Source: Desulfamplus sp. (GTDB taxonomy: Bacteria; Desulfobacterota; Desulfobacteria; Desulfobacterales; Desulfobacteraceae). Taken from it: DNA of 43,215 nucleotides. Position numbers and translations under genes: made by a program. The first letter of the stretch is position 1. Each line of letters opens with the position of its first letter. The stretch is taken from positions 1 to 43,215 of the forward strand of contig JADGBC010000011.1 of assembly GCA_015231705.1 (NCBI GenBank), in the 5' to 3' direction. Below the pieces are notes generated by a model that was not told the origin of the DNA, searched no databases, and saw only the letters and a list, made by a program, of their open reading frames with translations. Below are positions 3,940 to 38,944 of this stretch, in pieces.

Positions 3940-5316
3940 TTATGATTGTTTTTTCTCTTGTATGCCCAGGCTCATTTCAAGATTTTGAATGTGTTTCAGA
4001 AGGTCGTTCACATAGTCAATACTCTCTTTTTCCATAACCTCCCGATCCTTTTGGCGTTGCACTATATCATTCTCAAGACTTTGAATATGCCTTAAAAGAT
4101 CGTTAACATAATCAACCCGCTCTTTATCCATTGTTTCCCAATCTTTTTGGAGTTTAATGGTTTCATTTTCAAGTTTTTTGATCTCATTTTCAAGTTTCTT
4201 GATATAAATTTCCCGATCCTTGTCCATCTTTTCCCACTCTTGCTGAAGACTTCTGGTTCCCTGCTCAAGATTCCTGATATCACCCTCAAGTCTATTGATG
4301 TAGGCTTCTCGATCCTTGTCCATCTTTTCCCACTCTTGTTGAGATAGTCTGGTCTTCTGCTCAATATTTATGATATCATTTTCAAGTTTCTTGATATAGG
4401 TTTCTCGATCCTTGTCCATCTCTGTCCAGGTAGAACGCTCTTGTTGGAATTTTTTAACCTCTTCCTTTAAAAGAGTCATTTCCGGTAAAAATTCTCCTCG
4501 CATCTCCTTATTTACAGCCTTATATATCTCAACCATTTTATCAGGTGAATATCTGTGCCAATGTTTTAGATATAATTCTGCACGACCTTTATCCTGCCAT
4601 TGCTCTCCGCCTCCACCGACGATAAAAGAATGGTCAAATATCCTGTAAACAGCCGTAAAAAACGGTAGAAATATCAATTTGGCATGATCTGAGAGTCTCA
4701 GAAGAAGATCCCAGTCCTCAAAGCATGAAAATGAAGAATCAAAGCCCCCTATTTCCAAAAAAAGAGATCTCGGAATAATCAAAGCATTGATGGGTATATG
4801 GTTCTCCCACAAAATAGCATCAGCATTGAAAGGGGTACTGAAGATTTTAAAAAGCTCGCCAGAAAATCCATTACTGCTATAACGCAATGCTTTTACCTTT
4901 CCATGATAAACAACTGGCTCATTATGAATCTCCCTTTCAGGTGAATCTCCATTTTTTATAATCTCAATAAATTCTTTTATCCCTTCTGAAAGAAGAAGAT
5001 CATCGTCATCAAGGAAAAAAACCCAGGGGGCAGAAGATGAGTTAACACCACTGTTCCCAGCAGCCGATCTACCAACACTATCTTTAATATTTATATATAT
5101 GTATGGAATTTTCCCAGTAAGCACTTCATCAACAATATTTTCCACACACGCACCACCATCATTTACAACTATAACTTCAAAAAAATGATACTTCTGATCT
5201 TCAATAGCAAGAAGAGAATCAACAGCCAAAATGCTCTCTAACCCCTCTCTTAATAGAGATGCACGATTCTTGGTACGCATAACTATCGATATTTCAGGGT
5301 TTTGTCTTTTATCCAT
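3940..5316 (-). CDS. Family 2 glycosyltransferase with C-terminal coiled coil built from 32-residue repeats
   Basis: Residues about 8-250 form a GT2 domain: SIVMRTKNRASLL at the nucleotide-binding strand, EVIVVNDGG, the FFLDDDDLLL metal-binding strand, and FSCFEDWDLLLRL near the acceptor site. Residues 296-455 are five consecutive 32-residue repeats with core EWEKMDKDRE.YI..LE..I, strongly charged and heptad-like, so a long coiled coil is expected. Such tails on polysaccharide glycosyltransferases can set chain length or hold enzymes together; here that is inference. The gene starts 8 bases inside the end of the upstream PIG-L/GT gene (ATG 5316) and is followed after 26 bases by the double GT2 gene. 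Sugar specificity unknown. Confidence 0.85.
   Translation of the reverse strand: MDKRQNPEISIVMRTKNRASLLREGLESILAVDSLLAIEDQKYHFFEVIVVNDGGACVENIVDEVLTGKIPYIYINIKDSVGRSAAGNSGVNSSSAPWVFFLDDDDLLLSEGIKEFIEIIKNGDSPEREIHNEPVVYHGKVKALRYSSNGFSGELFKIFSTPFNADAILWENHIPINALIIPRSLFLEIGGFDSSFSCFEDWDLLLRLSDHAKLIFLPFFTAVYRIFDHSFIVGGGGEQWQDKGRAELYLKHWHRYSPDKMVEIYKAVNKEMRGEFLPEMTLLKEEVKKFQQERSTWTEMDKDRETYIKKLENDIINIEQKTRLSQQEWEKMDKDREAYINRLEGDIRNLEQGTRSLQQEWEKMDKDREIYIKKLENEIKKLENETIKLQKDWETMDKERVDYVNDLLRHIQSLENDIVQRQKDREVMEKESIDYVNDLLKHIQNLEMSLGIQEKKQS
3952..4431 (-). repeat. Five 96-bp coding tandem repeats
   Basis: Five units of 96 bases without spacers encode residues 296-455 of the coiled-coil glycosyltransferase. 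Units two and three are nearly identical (both start EWEKMDKDRE); the outer units are more diverged, and the last two share YVNDLL.HIQ.LE. This pattern suggests stepwise duplication inside the gene. Confidence 0.85.
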
Positions 5317-8300
5317 CTATTTCAAAACTCCAATCTTCTCTGACTTTACTCAAATTAGGATTATAAAAAGGGTCGTGTCGAAGGATTGTTCCCCACTTGG
5401 CCTTTATGTTATTCGTTGCGACCGGATCAACATAATAGCCTCTGCTGTAAGACTCATAATGATATAACTGGGCAAACGGGGTGTAGATAATTTGATACCC
5501 CTTATGTCTTATTGTCATACACAGATCTATATCATTATAAATTACCTTGAAATTATCTTGATCAAACCCACCGACCTCTTCAAAAACAGATTTTCTCACC
5601 ATCATGCAGGCACCGGTAACCGCACTTACGTTTCTTACCATAGATGGGAATCCATGATAAAAATCAGTTTCATATCTGTTAACATGCTTAAAGGCATGGC
5701 CAGCAAGCCCTGCTATTCCAACTACAACTCCAGCATGCTGTATTGTATCATTGACATAATAGAGTTTTGCCCCTACAACTCCGACCTCATCACGGCATGC
5801 ATGCTCCAGCATTGCATCAAGCCATTGCTCTGAAATAACCTCTGTATCTGAATTGAGAAAAAGAAGCATATCTCCCTTTGCATGTATGGCAGCGTAGTTA
5901 TTTATTGCTGAATAGTTAAAAGGTTTATCATAGTCCAAAATAGTCAGATTAAGGCCAGAAAGAGATTTCAGTTGACTTAGCAGCAAAAAGGTTTCCCTCT
6001 TTTTACTCTGATTATTTACACAGATAATTTCATAATTTTTATATTCTGTTTTTTCCACTATGCTCTGAATACAGGTCTCAAGAACCTCGTGACTATCTTT
6101 GAATGGAATTATTATAGAGACAAATGTATTTGGATCAAATTTACGTGCAACCCGAAATGACTGCTTGGTCAATCCATCATAAACTTCAGCCTCAACACCC
6201 CTACGCTTCATAGAGAGTGCAATTGCTTTTTTTGCCTTTGATGACGCTCTATCAGAAAAAGATCCTTTAGCATGATAAAATGAATGTTTGTCATGATTAC
6301 CTGAGCATATAACACCAGAAGACTGTGACGAAACACTGTCTGAGACAATTTTTATGTGAAAGTCTCTTGAATTGGCCGTAATTATAGGAGTTTCATTTTT
6401 AGTTGTACCCATCAGGGCATGGCCGTTATCCAGATTTTCCGAGCAGCTATCTACTGCATCAAAGATTCTGCGATGATATAAAATTTGAGGAATATGACGG
6501 ATGTTTGTTGTTAATTCACTCAATTTAAGAAGCAGGTCATATTCACAGCACTCTTCAAATCCAGGAGTATAACCCCCTGCTTTTTGAAAAATATCTTTTT
6601 TGTAAAGAACCAAACTTCCAATGTACATGCTCGACAAAAAAAGATCAGGAGACCAGTCTGGCTTGAAAAACGGCTCCATCCGTACACCTTTGTCTGAAAT
6701 TTTATCCTCATCACTGTAAATACAGTCTGTATCTGGAGATTGTCTGAGAAGTTTTACACATTCATGCAGGGCATCAGTTGCCAGCGTGTCAAATGGCTCA
6801 AGCATACACAAATAACTGCATTCTGAAGAATTAATAATTTGATTAAGATTATTGGCAATTTCCCCATTAATATGAAGATTCTGAACAGTAACTCTGTTGT
6901 CATCCATATATTGATTCAAGAAATTTTTTAAAGACTTATCAACCCTGCAACCTGAATCTTCTAAACTATTGTCCGAATCTTCTGAACTATTGCCTGAATT
7001 TGGCAGGCATATACCTGATGTACTGCCAAGTAGTATCAATTTCCAATTTTTATATGATTGATTCATTACAGATTCAATCGAGTCTGATAAAAGATCCAGA
7101 TAGCAAGAATATGAAGATATAGTTGAGTTCAAACACTGACAGTCATAGCTCAGATTAAAAAGTGGAATGACAACCGCAATATCAGGAACTTCGCCATCAT
7201 TAGCAGATACAAATTGGGTCATTTCGTTGTTTACAGAGTGTTCATTTGCTGCAATCCAGAGATGATATTTTGCTACAGGATCTATTTTTGGGCCAAGTCT
7301 CGACCAAAGTCCAAGGCACTTGTCATCAACTCCTTCTGTAAGAGACAGGCTGATATAAAATGTCTGGCCATCAGAGTATTCAACAGGTTCAAATTCAAAA
7401 GAGACAAAACGGTTATCCATGATGGCTGGAGACATTATTTTAGATGTACGGAGAGGGGTCTGTTCATTCAAACTTGCAAAATCGCAATGTGTATAAAGAG
7501 ATAATTCAAGAATACCCGGGTTGACTCTCATGTAAGTTGCCATGAACAGGTCAATACAGGCCAGATTTTTCTTTGTACACTTTATGGAAAACAGAACAGG
7601 TTTGTTATTAACAAGAGGTATAAGTTCTTTATTGCCATAGGTGTCACTTTCCAGATATATGTCATGCTCTCTAAAATCACCATCCAGCTCATCTTCTGAA
7701 TAAAAGATAGCTATAGGTTCTCTATCTGTAATTGGTAGTTCCGTTAAATCTTGTGGACAATTTTCAGATTCACAGCAGTCGCACCCTTCAGCAAAAGGCT
7801 TTGCATACGATTTAGAACAAGACACTGGCGTGTGAGCATAACTAAAATCATTTTTTTTTTTAAGAGAGAATCTCTTTTTTCTCAGATTCCTGAAAAAAAG
7901 TCTCAAATTCATCATTGATTTGATGTAACCAGATGCCAGTCTATGCGATCTTGACAAAGAAACAACAGAGATATTTTCTTCCAATATTTTTACGATCTCG
8001 TTATTTTTTTTGTTTATCTTTTTAAGAGCCTCTATTTCACTTGTTTTTTCATTGATATCTTTTGCAAGTTCATTTGATAAATTAAAATAGGTTAAAAGTG
8101 TGGCAGCCTGATTGTTTACTTTATCCCTTAACCGTCTTAATTGATTGTTATATGTTGAAGTAATAAAAGATATTTTATTGCCAATTATTTTACCATGAAA
8201 ATGAACATTATCATTTTCATTATTGGGGGTGGCCCAATTCGGCCATGACCGTTTATTATCAGTTGCTGACTTTTCCTCTGCCCATTTCACTTGCCCAGAA

Positions 8301-9016
8301 GGTGAAAGATACTTGAAAACCTGGCTGAAATAGTATTTTTCAGGTGATATGGACTTGCCTGCATCATGGCACCAGAAGCCCTCGGCATACTCAATCTCCA
8401 TTCCAAGAGTAATACTTCGCATTGAGTTAAGGCAAAGTGCGTGCAATTTATAATCAAGCTGTTCAAGCTGACTGGCATAGCATTCTATCGCAGATTCTTT
8501 AACATCAAGGACTGAAGAGATATCAATCAGTCTGTTGATCTCTCCCTGCCTGTTGATCTCATAAAACCAAAGATCAAAATTACAGTCTCTGTTTTCCAGA
8601 AAAGTCAGAATTTTTTGAGTAGTTGCTCTGTGGTCAGGATGAATTTCCTGAAAAGAGGGTAAAAAGATGACAGTAGGCTCTGTTATCCTGATGATCTCAT
8701 CCAGAAAATCTTCGGGAAGGTTTTCAAACAGTACATTTCGATCCCCCATTCCAAGATTAAATGTTTTATCAATACCCAGAACATCTGCCGCCCGTCTGGC
8801 CTCATTTTTTCTAGTCTCAGGGTTGCCCCCCATATCACCATTGGTCACAAACACCACATTCACAGAAATCCCTTTGCTGATAGCAAGGGCAATGGTGCCT
8901 CCCATGCCAAGAGTTTCATCATCAGGATGAGGAGCAAACACAAGATATGGTCCAGAAGGAAGCTGTGAATCAGAATACGGTAAAAGATCATTTTCACTGA
9001 TTATATTAGCAACCAT
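5309..9016 (-). CDS. PIG-L deacetylase fused to two family 2 glycosyltransferase domains
   Basis: 1235 residues. About 20-230 is a PIG-L/LmbE zinc-dependent N-deacetylase: APHPDDETLGMGGT (zinc ligands HxDD), VFVTNGDMGG, and the later IHPDHRATT. About 278-370 is a charged coiled coil, about 395-418 is Cys-rich (CDCCESENCPQ), and about 440-600 is probably a beta domain. Then come two GT2 domains: about 612-850 (AVVIPLFN, CIYSDEDKIS, EPFFKPDWSPDLF) and about 963-1225 (SIIIPFKDS, LLFLNSDTEVIS, AGHAFKH), as in O-antigen GT2 enzymes. The protein would deacetylate an N-acetyl sugar and extend the chain. Two foreign-looking segments coincide with dispersed repeats: R2 at residues about 256-276 and R1 at about 864-889, both between domains. 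An Asp/Ser-rich insertion (SSEDSDNSLEDSG, about 669-689) is also present. It overlaps the next gene by 8 bases. Domains confident; the exact reaction is not known. Confidence 0.88.
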   Translation of the reverse strand: MVANIISENDLLPYSDSQLPSGPYLVFAPHPDDETLGMGGTIALAISKGISVNVVFVTNGDMGGNPETRKNEARRAADVLGIDKTFNLGMGDRNVLFENLPEDFLDEIIRITEPTVIFLPSFQEIHPDHRATTQKILTFLENRDCNFDLWFYEINRQGEINRLIDISSVLDVKESAIECYASQLEQLDYKLHALCLNSMRSITLGMEIEYAEGFWCHDAGKSISPEKYYFSQVFKYLSPSGQVKWAEEKSATDNKRSWPNWATPNNENDNVHFHGKIIGNKISFITSTYNNQLRRLRDKVNNQAATLLTYFNLSNELAKDINEKTSEIEALKKINKKNNEIVKILEENISVVSLSRSHRLASGYIKSMMNLRLFFRNLRKKRFSLKKKNDFSYAHTPVSCSKSYAKPFAEGCDCCESENCPQDLTELPITDREPIAIFYSEDELDGDFREHDIYLESDTYGNKELIPLVNNKPVLFSIKCTKKNLACIDLFMATYMRVNPGILELSLYTHCDFASLNEQTPLRTSKIMSPAIMDNRFVSFEFEPVEYSDGQTFYISLSLTEGVDDKCLGLWSRLGPKIDPVAKYHLWIAANEHSVNNEMTQFVSANDGEVPDIAVVIPLFNLSYDCQCLNSTISSYSCYLDLLSDSIESVMNQSYKNWKLILLGSTSGICLPNSGNSSEDSDNSLEDSGCRVDKSLKNFLNQYMDDNRVTVQNLHINGEIANNLNQIINSSECSYLCMLEPFDTLATDALHECVKLLRQSPDTDCIYSDEDKISDKGVRMEPFFKPDWSPDLFLSSMYIGSLVLYKKDIFQKAGGYTPGFEECCEYDLLLKLSELTTNIRHIPQILYHRRIFDAVDSCSENLDNGHALMGTTKNETPIITANSRDFHIKIVSDSVSSQSSGVICSGNHDKHSFYHAKGSFSDRASSKAKKAIALSMKRRGVEAEVYDGLTKQSFRVARKFDPNTFVSIIIPFKDSHEVLETCIQSIVEKTEYKNYEIICVNNQSKKRETFLLLSQLKSLSGLNLTILDYDKPFNYSAINNYAAIHAKGDMLLFLNSDTEVISEQWLDAMLEHACRDEVGVVGAKLYYVNDTIQHAGVVVGIAGLAGHAFKHVNRYETDFYHGFPSMVRNVSAVTGACMMVRKSVFEEVGGFDQDNFKVIYNDIDLCMTIRHKGYQIIYTPFAQLYHYESYSRGYYVDPVATNNIKAKWGTILRHDPFYNPNLSKVREDWSFEIDG
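6351..6429 (-). repeat. R1 palindromic repeat, copy A, inside a coding sequence
   Basis: Seventy-nine bases matching the R1 family: GTGAAAGTCTCTTGAATT at one end and CCCATCAGGGCATGGCCGTTAT at the other, read here on the opposite strand. It lies within the PIG-L/GT gene in the linker between the GT2 domains and is translated as the R1 peptide (NGHALMGTTKNE to SRDFHIK, Met at residue 869). Confidence 0.88.
8188..8251 (-). repeat. R2 palindromic repeat, copy b, inside a coding sequence
   Basis: Contains TTTTACCATGAAAATG, CATTTTCAT and GGGTGGCCCAATTCGGCCATGACC, the parts of the R2 family in the same order as in the non-coding copies at 11041-11096 and 23979-24043. It is translated in frame between the deacetylase and coiled-coil parts of the PIG-L/GT protein (WPNWATPNNEN and VHFHGK). 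Confidence 0.8.
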
Positions 9017-9918: not shown

Positions 9919-9998
9919 ATAACGCTCATGCCCTGATGGGCACAACAAAGAATGAAAGTCTCATGATTACAGCTATTTTAGAAGACTTTCACACAAAT
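9919..9998 (+). repeat. R1 palindromic repeat, copy B
   Basis: Fills half of the 172-bp gap between the LpxL-like gene and wzm. TGAAAGTC at 9953-9960 pairs with GACTTTCA at 9984-9991, and GCCCTGATGGGC forms a second small hairpin. The R1 peptide frame is open (MGTTKNESLMITAILEDFHT), but no gene is claimed for it. Confidence 0.85.
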
Positions 9999-19807: not shown

Positions 19808-19901
19808 TTTATGTGAAAGTCTCTTGAATTAGCAGTAATCATGGGACTTTCATTGTTCGTTGTGGCCAAGAGCAATACCCCGCTCCGGCCGTGCCGGTTA
19901 T
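19808..19901 (-). repeat. R1 palindromic repeat, copy C (longer subtype)
   Basis: Same ends as the other R1 copies but with a longer middle carrying CTCCGGCCGTGCCGG, a second hairpin. The R1 peptide frame is open in reverse (NRHGRSGVLLLATTNNESP and on to SRDFHIK). It fills the gap between the YfhO-like gene and the GT2 start, and adjoins a partial R2 copy. Confidence 0.85.
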
Positions 19902-25873: not shown

Positions 25874-27976
25874 ATGGATAAAGCAAGTACGGGAAAAACA
25901 AAAAAGTATCTGCCTCTATGCCGTGAGCTACTCAAGCTAAAAAATATTAATGATCCAGAACCTGGAATACTTGAAGCATTTATAGGCGATGAGACTGTTT
26001 CTGGCCATCTTGACTATATGAGTGGTTATCTTATGACTCTATGGGATAAACAGACCCTTAAAAACAGAGGTCATGAAGCACAACAACAAAGTGACATAAA
26101 AACACTTGATAGAAATGACCGGAGACTGACAAGACAGAACAGAGAGTTTTCTTCATTGCAGGAGCTGTTAAATGTTGATACATCACCTCTCTCCTCAGGG
26201 AAAAAGCCAGACCCAGGCTCAGCACAAACACCAGATAGAAATACAATAATAGAGCCTGAATCAGGCATAACATCAAAACCAGAACCAGCACCAGAAGTAA
26301 TATCAGGAACAACAGCAGAACCAGTATCAGACACAATAACAAAGCCTCAACCTATCACAACTGATGAGGGCTCAAAAACAGCAAAACCTGAACCAAATCA
26401 GGTGGAAAAAGAGAAGACTCCCATGCCAATACCATTGAATATAAACAGGGATGATCCTGTCAAAACTGAGAAATATGATCCTGCCGATCCTGAAAAAAAA
26501 CCGAAAAAATCCCATTATTCTTCTTTTGATTTCAGGCTTCCCAATGCCACGGTCGGAAAACCATACTCTTCAGGTTTTACAGTAACTTTTCAAGGCAGTG
26601 CTATAAACCTGCAAGATATTGAGATTCTTGACATAAAAGGTCTCGAATCAACAGGTCTTGATTTTGAATCAACTGTTGCCGGACAGGAAAAAACGATTGC
26701 TGAACATGGCAAGACCGCATCTAAAGATAACAAGGCTGCTACTGTCATCAAAGATACTGTCATCAAAGGAGAACCCTCAAAAAGCGGTGAAATAGAGATT
26801 GATATCTTTTTCCGACTTAAAAACAGTGAAAAGGGGCATAAGGCCAAATCTGTTTTTGTTATTAATCCTGACCCAAGATCTTTGTGGAAAGATATACCAT
26901 CTGACAAAAGTTCCCTGTTCTGGAAACCAGATGAGGATAGACTGGAAATAGAGGCCGAAGATGGATGGAAAATGGTTGGAGCAAGCAAAAGAGGCCGATC
27001 TCACGCCCATGAAGGAAAATGCAGGGATGACCATTTTCTGATCTCTTTTTTATCCTCAAAAAAATGGCATATTCTTGCTGTCGCAGATGGTGCGGGAAGT
27101 GCTGCTCTTTCCCGTGAAGGCTCAAGAATTGCCGTTACCGAGTCAGCCAGAGTTCTTGCTGAAAAATTAGAGGTATTTGACAGCGAGATTGTCGATATAT
27201 TAACTACAATGTCAGCAAGCGAGTGCGTAATTGAAAACAGATCCGTTACGGTTAATGAGACCAGTACGGTTGACGAGGGTAGAGAGGATAACCGCGGCAG
27301 CAGTTTGGTAAACAGACTTAAAGAGACTCTTTATAAAGTATTCAGCCTTGCTGTATATGAGCCGGTAAAGGTTATACACGAAACTGTAAAGCAAATTGCA
27401 AAACAACAGAATGATCCTCTAACAAATCCCCTTCTATCAAATGAGCTGATGTCAAAAAATATTAACCCGCAGTCAAATCAGAGCAAGGTTAAATTCAGAG
27501 ATTTTCATACAACACTTATACTTGCGGCACACAAAGAGATTGATGGCAGACACTTTGTTGCCTCGTACTGGATAGGTGATGGAGGTATCGGTCTTTATAA
27601 TGAGGGGGATTCTATAAAAATTCTTGGTGAAGGGGACAGCGGAGAGTTTGCTGGCCAGACAAGATTTCTTGACAACAATGCTATCACCAGCGAAGATATA
27701 TACAGGCGGATCTGCTTTGAATATCAAAAGAGTATGACAGCATTGGTACTGATGAGCGACGGTATAACCGATCCTGTTTTTGAAACAGATCAAAAACTTG
27801 GGACCCTTGCTGTCTGGGACAGGGTGTGGAAGGAAAATATAAGCAAAATGCTCACCGACAAAACGGATCAGACCGGTGCAAACCTGCTTGAATGGCTCGA
27901 CTTCTGGTCACAGGGAAACCATGATGACAGAACTGTGGCACTGCTTTACAGGCAAGAAAAAAAAGAACCATTGTGA
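25874..27976 (+). CDS. PP2C-type protein phosphatase with proline-rich linker and Ig-like domain
   Basis: Metal-dependent Ser/Thr phosphatase of the PP2C_2 type at about 360-695: SHAHEGKCRDDHFLI, ILAVADGAGSAALSREGS (metal-binding Asp and Gly), YWIGDGGIGLY, LVLMSDGITDP and the final HDDRTVAL all match the family's metal-site residues. The first 75 residues are helical. About 105-205 is low complexity, rich in Pro, Glu and Thr with repeats such as PEPAPE and TAEPVSDT. About 205-335 resembles a bacterial Ig-like (He_PIG) domain: FRLPNATVGKPYSSGFTVT. An insertion of Asp/Glu/Asn-rich residues (about 440-480) lies between PP2C strands. It follows the second vWA gene by three bases, so translation is coupled. 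In TerY-P systems it opposes the kinase. Confidence 0.85.
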   Translation: MDKASTGKTKKYLPLCRELLKLKNINDPEPGILEAFIGDETVSGHLDYMSGYLMTLWDKQTLKNRGHEAQQQSDIKTLDRNDRRLTRQNREFSSLQELLNVDTSPLSSGKKPDPGSAQTPDRNTIIEPESGITSKPEPAPEVISGTTAEPVSDTITKPQPITTDEGSKTAKPEPNQVEKEKTPMPIPLNINRDDPVKTEKYDPADPEKKPKKSHYSSFDFRLPNATVGKPYSSGFTVTFQGSAINLQDIEILDIKGLESTGLDFESTVAGQEKTIAEHGKTASKDNKAATVIKDTVIKGEPSKSGEIEIDIFFRLKNSEKGHKAKSVFVINPDPRSLWKDIPSDKSSLFWKPDEDRLEIEAEDGWKMVGASKRGRSHAHEGKCRDDHFLISFLSSKKWHILAVADGAGSAALSREGSRIAVTESARVLAEKLEVFDSEIVDILTTMSASECVIENRSVTVNETSTVDEGREDNRGSSLVNRLKETLYKVFSLAVYEPVKVIHETVKQIAKQQNDPLTNPLLSNELMSKNINPQSNQSKVKFRDFHTTLILAAHKEIDGRHFVASYWIGDGGIGLYNEGDSIKILGEGDSGEFAGQTRFLDNNAITSEDIYRRICFEYQKSMTALVLMSDGITDPVFETDQKLGTLAVWDRVWKENISKMLTDKTDQTGANLLEWLDFWSQGNHDDRTVALLYRQEKKEPL

Positions 27977-28055
27977 TTTATGTGAAAGTCTCTCTAAATA
28001 GCCGTGATTATATGACTTTCATTTTTGGTTGTGCCCATCAGGGCATGAGTGTTAG
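27977..28055 (-). repeat. R1 palindromic repeat, copy D
   Basis: Begins directly at the stop codon of the PP2C gene (TGA 27974-27976) and fills most of the gap to the kinase gene. It is the only R1 copy whose peptide frame has a stop (…IITAI then TAG). Its GAAAGTC/GACTTTC arms can pair. Confidence 0.85.
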
Positions 28056-29627: not shown

Positions 29628-29720
29628 ATAACCGGCACGGCCGGAGCGAGGTATTGATCTTGGCCACAACGAAGAATGAAAGTCGCATAATTACTGCTAT
29701 TTCAAGAGACTTTCACATAA
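29628..29720 (+). repeat. R1 palindromic repeat, copy E (longer subtype)
   Basis: ATAACCGGCACGGCCGG at the start and GAGACTTTCACATAA at the end, with the same longer middle as copy C. The R1 frame is open (ATTKNESRIITAISRDFHIN). It lies between the kinase and pgpA-like genes; the pgpA ribosome site AAAGGA begins at its right edge. Confidence 0.85.
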
Positions 29721-29733
29721 ACAAAGGACGCAT

Positions 29734-38865: not shown

Positions 38866-38944
38866 ATAACGGCCATACCCTGATGGGCACTACGAAAAAT
38901 GAAATTCTTATAATTACAGATATCTCAAGAGACTTTCACCTAAA
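38866..38944 (+). repeat. R1 palindromic repeat, copy F
   Basis: ATAACGGCCATACCCTGATGGGC to GAGACTTTCACCTAAA. The R1 peptide frame is open (NGHTLMGTTKNEILIITDISRDFH, here split for reading). It follows the last efflux gene. Confidence 0.85.

Follow-up and report, generated by a model that had tools for sequence, protein, structure and literature searches.

The RPE of Rickettsia are described as short stem-loop repeats found across one genus, many of them in frame within unrelated conserved protein genes and others between genes (PMC2229807, PMC10969869). A 2024 review singles them out for their unusually high frequency of in-frame fusion, and 44 RPE insertions are reported for R. conorii (PMC10969869). 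The Correia (NEMIS) elements of Neisseria comprise an open 107-bp class that is common in genes and a 155-bp class with stop codons that is found almost only between genes; they carry 24-bp terminal inverted repeats and target duplications (PMC2229807). REP sequences of the GTAG and CGTC families are reported to lie mostly between co-directional or convergent genes, some supplying a TAG stop codon and some being genic (PMC3733652). For Desulfotalea psychrophila REP counts are given, and the passages concerned list no intragenic ones (PMC12306157). The QMITE1 and QMITE2 sequences of Coxiella burnetii are miniature elements, some of which are located in frame in the interior of hypothetical open reading frames (PMC5896051).

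R1, the repeat family analyzed here, resembles RPE in lying in frame and on one strand inside many unrelated proteins (30 full-length copies of its SHORT subfamily in 29 called genes), and its division into SHORT and LONG subfamilies is reminiscent of the two Correia/NEMIS size classes. RPE are about 105-150 bp long and belong to Rickettsia, whereas R1 units of 75 or 90-91 nt occur in another genus, have an ATA^A target and form tandem arrays. Unlike Correia elements, R1 lacks a terminal inverted repeat and any duplication above 2 bp. REP sequences measure 20-40 bp, bear a GTAG or CGTC tag and are discussed together with RAYT transposases, whereas R1 is longer and supplies TAA. The QMITE1/QMITE2 elements also differ from R1, being 150-400 bp long and having direct repeats of either 2-3 or 7-11 nt (PMC5896051). 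The earlier note on this DNA had drawn the comparison with RPE; it works as an analogy, based on in-frame insertion in unrelated genes, but the host genus is not Rickettsia. R1 may accordingly be termed an analogue of RPE by behaviour, not by sequence comparison.

The R1 family in the window and in its genus

Six R1 copies with common ends and a common frame were located by the earlier note in the window (the whole 43,215-nt stretch of DNA analyzed), and our analysis recovered all of them:

6351..6429, strand -: R1 copy A, SHORT, inside the glycosyltransferase gene and predicted to be translated with it
6351-6425, 75 nt: inserted unit of copy A, deduced from the empty sites of other copies
5309..9016, strand -: host gene of copy A, 1235 aa, with a PIG-L domain (residues 25-135) and a glycosyltransferase family 2 domain (residues 967-1148)
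9919..9998, strand +: R1 copy B, SHORT, intergenic, frame open
19808..19901, strand -: R1 copy C, LONG, intergenic, frame open
27977..28055, strand -: R1 copy D, SHORT, intergenic, with one TAG in the peptide frame
29628..29721, strand +: R1 copy E, LONG, intergenic, frame open
38866..38944, strand +: R1 copy F, SHORT, intergenic, frame open

The SHORT copies (A, B, D and F) span 78 nt from TAAC to AAA and contain a 75-nt inserted unit, and the LONG copies (C and E) measure 93 nt. The reading frame used in the PIG-L/glycosyltransferase gene is stop-free in five of the six copies, the exception being the TAG of copy D, as had been noted before. Copy D directly adjoins the end of the gene at 25874-27976. 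The designation of R1 as palindromic holds in so far as two small hairpins are present, but these are modest (DNA-fold z-scores of +0.15 to -3.44 for the six copies).

The genome from which the window derives (G000) is a 3.6-Mb, 75% complete assembly of 282 contigs. Its screening with the R1 tail GACTTTCACATAAA, allowing at most one mismatch, yielded 196+205 = 401 matches, compared with 1+3 = 4 for a reversed-pattern control, so the family accounts for about 400 matches in this genome. R1 is abundant in five of the ten genomes of the genus: the others carry 266 (G001), 230 (G002), 72 (G003) and 26 (G004) tails, and the remaining five 1-4 each. In 48 genomes outside the genus the tail is near chance level, with 0-12 occurrences each (maximum 12, in G023, vs 4 in the control). 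No Rfam family was matched at gathering thresholds by the window and four other stretches, and the core pattern had no exact match in IMG/VR virus contigs. No description of the family was found among the matches listed for open-access literature on Desulfamplus repeats, “Desulfo” REP and genic palindromic elements or MITEs. R1 is a real family, of an established kind and new within the scope of these searches.

Rates were derived from set A, i.e. 41 stretches of the genome, totalling 541,538 bases, picked regardless of genes (the window, L025-L044 and L065-L084), 11 of which were chosen since the tail was listed on their contigs. Sets B and C were chosen via peptide matches and were excluded from the rates. 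Set A contains 100 R1 copies, 85 of them full length, and the counts given for it omit the 15 partial matches. The two subfamilies have a common 3′ half, and LONG has a different 5′ hairpin. SHORT copies usually run for 78 nt from TAAC to AAA, and LONG copies are 93 nt in 21 of 52 cases and 94 nt in another 21. Tandem copies are joined head to tail, with 15 of the 17 spacings in all stretches read being 75-76 or 89-93 nt; these spacings and the empty sites described below define units of 75 nt (SHORT) and mostly 90 or 91 nt (LONG).

R1 contains two internal hairpins and a direct ATAA at each end. Of the 140 copies aligned at both ends, 136 have an A at position -1 of the flank, which identifies the target as ATA^A; positions -7 to -5 are T-rich. 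The net gain of 75 nt at empty sites leaves room for a target duplication of at most 2 bp (AA), which is conceivable because of the A-run. One SHORT-sized copy (L124:3372-3452) encodes a peptide unlike the others, WRITATIEEMKVFIKTGHYRDFLIK, and perhaps represents a further subfamily or a G001-like one. G001 itself (L045-L064) contains mixed tandem arrays of several diverged subfamilies, with 31 head-to-tail junctions among 95 matches; the corresponding figure for set A of G000 is 10 among 99.

R1 copies inside protein-coding genes

Genes were predicted by simple codon-score calls. The called genes of set A contain 13 of the 33 full SHORT copies, all in sense orientation and in one frame, and none of the 52 full LONG copies (p = 8e-7), one of which overlaps a gene end by 40 nt. 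A partial copy (L073:5017) is also genic and has the same frame as the full ones. In all stretches read, the 30 sense SHORT copies in 29 genes use a single frame; two of their alignments ended 1-2 nt early and the frame was corrected accordingly. The peptide is recognisable in every one of the 30, the residue preceding the insert is always D, N or Y, and that following it is K or N in 29. At least 60 open codons were found on both sides in 27 copies, the other three being near the gene start. Three antisense copies were detected in called genes, all in sets B and C (two LONG, and one SHORT in a weak call). Among the genome-wide peptide matches (150 of 395 candidates scored), 34 are within open frames of at least 300 residues, one with a stop.

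The expectation that copies would be found in the same frame inside many unrelated proteins was borne out by these 30 SHORT copies and by all three sense genic copies read in G001, and the other genomic copies are not all intergenic. The claim that nearly all copies keep the frame was overstated, because in set A only 25 of 33 full SHORT and 25 of 52 full LONG copies are free of stops in that frame from end to end. A separate group of copies (six of the 85 full copies in set A, 15 across the three sets) has its first base precisely at the TAA that terminates the preceding gene, e.g. L031:7152, L033:3642, L035:10353, L037:6337, L071:840 and L079:6597. An insertion at such a TAA leaves the protein unchanged.

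Only one of the 29 host proteins scanned was without a Pfam match. The hosts identified are 1-deoxyxylulose-5-phosphate synthase (DXS), MutL, FtsK, RecJ, urocanase, proline racemase, ComEC (two copies), a PEP-utilising enzyme, an MFS transporter, histidine kinases, a ketosynthase/FabA protein and others. The insert lies between called domains in DXS, MutL, RecJ and the second ComEC copy, and in urocanase, proline racemase and the PEP-binding domain it occupies a stretch missing from relatives or solved structures. An AlphaFold model of the inserted urocanase, built on an 8-sequence alignment, was poor (mean pLDDT 43.3) and therefore uninformative on the insert. Immediately before the second ComEC copy (L042, around 16100) there is a run NNSHALMDT, which looks like the start of another, truncated R1 copy.

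In the glycosyltransferase of the window, the peptide of copy A corresponds to 25 residues, N864-I888, N-terminal to the called GT2 domain (967-1148), and its site is taken for a linker. The nearest relatives of this protein are encoded by MAGs named Desulfamplus, which makes Desulfamplus the probable genus of the R1 carriers. Relatives are shorter at this site (ten aligned, all among the alignments listed), and none of them has the unrelated run of equal length that the earlier note had named as evidence against an insertion. The stretch between the conserved blocks is longer than in the aligned relatives, and the repeat accounts for roughly half of the extra length relative to the closest ones. 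A weak R1-like match within the same gene (window 8212-8253, strand -; 15.5 bits, E = 0.0014) is absent with a larger model at E 0.001, and is possibly an old, decayed R1 copy.

The 31 genic copies (30 full and one partial) were compared with the close relative G003. Nine, including that of the glycosyltransferase, had no relative among the G003 loci fetched, and in most of the remaining comparisons the loop was too diverged. Clean empty sites were found for L110 and L112, where G003 has the TAA target intact and lacks exactly 75 nt. A net 75 nt is also missing from G003 in MutL (L107), with a changed target, and in DXS (L102), where the alignment was parsed by eye. This one relative thus reveals the exact ends of the element. 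The FtsK copy (L035) is common to G000 and G003, with one extra in-frame codon in the latter, and the second ComEC copy (L042:16130) is also present in G003, with further changes.

Probable loss of gene-breaking insertions and other explanations of the single frame

In our judgement, R1 elements are very probably short non-autonomous mobile repeats of one genus, whose single frame stems from the loss of gene-breaking insertions. They would insert at ATA^A, usually after a T-rich stretch, with no resolvable duplication of more than 2 bp. A SHORT insertion adds 75 nt; in sense orientation, and with the target read xAT-AAx, it would be read through by the ribosome, placing 25 residues (consensus NGHALMGTTKNES-IITA-SRDFHI) between D/N/Y and K/N and leaving the downstream frame intact. 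Insertion in other frames or on the other strand would usually bring in a stop codon and be removed by selection, so the surviving copies would be those on one strand and in one frame. LONG elements (90-91 nt, about half with a stop, and 21 of 52 of the frame-shifting 91-nt kind) would be retained in intergenic DNA, in some cases on a gene's TAA stop codon.

When all frames of the SHORT copies of set A are compared, the peptide frame is open in 23 of 33, vs 0-4 of 33 for each of the other five; by the whole-element count it is open in all 13 genic copies compared with 12 of the 20 others (p = 0.01). The ATAA targets number 1153 in-frame sense, 3225 other genic and 1528 intergenic. With equal survival, about one quarter of genic copies would therefore be expected to be in frame and sense, not 13 of 13. 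The genic fraction of SHORT (0.39) is close to that expected from in-frame targets among in-frame plus intergenic ones (0.43; p = 0.73), which indicates that in-frame insertions survive about as well as intergenic ones, whereas insertions in the remaining genic positions are missing. Given a single frame that is mostly stop-free, and a genic share that matches expectation, the loss of harmful insertions is the most likely reason for the kept frame. Of the two reasons offered by the earlier note, purging is thus favoured, and use of the peptide found no positive evidence.

Genome G001 shows the pattern predicted by a filter on frame and length. Of the 35 tandem spacings there, 23 measure 79-80 nt, and although 35 of the 63 full copies are stop-free in one sense frame, only four of 95 matches lie in called genes: one antisense and three sense (two of them in one gene), the latter being diverged and in the G000 frame. 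Avoidance of stops and of frame shifts is nevertheless incomplete as an explanation, since LONG copies that are open and of the right length are absent from genes: in set A, none of 13 right-length, stop-free LONG copies is genic vs 11 of 23 SHORT copies (p = 0.0026). In addition, 25 of 52 LONG copies have one stop-free antisense frame, and no LONG copy of set A is genic. The stronger 5′ hairpin of LONG, or its youth, may matter here. A more far-reaching proposal, which we put forward only tentatively and with more doubt than belief, is that SHORT is adapted to genes: with 25 codons, a usually stop-free frame and a phase-compatible target, its entry would be almost cost-free and would make it a translated passenger, a state rarely or never reached by LONG, even when open and of the right length, or by the G001 units of mostly 79-80 nt.

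Selection could instead act on the peptide itself, not only on the open frame, if R1 had been co-opted in many proteins as a linker or surface loop. Every genic copy has a recognisable peptide, synonymous changes among these copies exceed expectation (108 of 275 vs 74 at random positions), and the FtsK copies of two species have stayed in frame through seven non-synonymous and five synonymous codon changes. However, a like excess was observed in the other copies (112 of 311 vs 86 expected), and since the two groups do not differ (p = 0.44), the excess looks inherited from the subfamilies. This comparison drew on the 71 of 88 full SHORT copies that measure exactly 78 nt and are aligned at both ends, 29 of them preceded by at least 15 and followed by at least 60 open codons. 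It is biased towards conservation, as many of the 42 others were found through the peptide. Moreover, the hosts are functionally unrelated, and the comparable sites are variable linkers or loops. We rejected a selected peptide on the basis of the similar synonymous share in genic and other SHORT copies; the comparison of the 29 with the 42 gave no sign of peptide-level selection, and the recruitment of R1 for its peptide is very improbable.

Somewhat less remote, yet still unlikely, is the view that R1 is a REP-like DNA or RNA element kept for a function in transcript ending or mRNA stability or as a binding site, its presence in genes being incidental. LONG copies between co-directional genes are oriented with the genes in 33 cases vs 5 against (set A, 11 contig-edge copies omitted), a skew that candidate targets in the same gaps hardly show (493 to 429), and hairpin pairing is about equally kept in genic and other SHORT copies. 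SHORT, however, has no orientation bias (7 to 6), Rfam gives no match at curated thresholds, and only 2 compensatory pairs occur among 923 pair positions, so the pairing is explained by recent copying. Finally, in an assembly as incomplete and fragmented as this one (75%, 282 contigs), genic copies might result from misassembly at a repeat or from spurious long open frames, but the host proteins compared are conserved on both flanks of the insert, and G003 shares two insertions in place and has empty sites for others; an artefact is hardly credible. The loss of gene-breaking insertions thus remains our preferred explanation.

Probable mobility of R1 and its significance

Both SHORT and LONG include copies that differ from another copy by 0-2 mismatches, which supports recent spread. 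No autonomous element with R1 ends was found among the partial matches in the stretches read, which cover about a quarter of the incomplete genome. Long open Y1 matches were detected in G001 and G004, which carry R1, and in G005, G007 and G008, which do not, while G000, G002 and G003 (with R1, all incomplete) have Y1 transposase fragments or none. A Y1/REP-type transposase is not favoured as the mobiliser, because Y1 genes do not track R1 across these genomes, several of which are incomplete. R1 models applied to 12 loci with Y1 matches detected one partial R1 head, beside a decayed IS in G000 C7 (L031:9589-10485). At this locus the R1 head fragment is followed by the IS with its Y1 transposase fragment and possibly an IscB-like gene; the IS is read as an insertion next to R1, not as its parent.

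Elements derived from IS200/IS605 insert 3′ of a fixed short target without duplication and have subterminal hairpins. The A at -1 in 136 of 140 copies, the empty sites and the hairpins of R1 fit these traits, and its putative insertion mode (a fixed short target, little or no duplication, and hairpins near the ends) resembles that of the IS200/IS605 type.

The fusions of RPE with proteins could be explained by relaxed selection in an intracellular host; to our knowledge, the sulfate-reducing genus carrying R1 is not known to be intracellular. R1 appears to be another family with RPE-like behaviour; the number of genes it occupies is comparable to the 44 insertions of R. conorii, and its hosts include MutL, DXS and FtsK. 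Because the two subfamilies and the other unit length of the relative provide natural controls, the cost of a foreign 25-residue peptide would be measurable from survival ratios.
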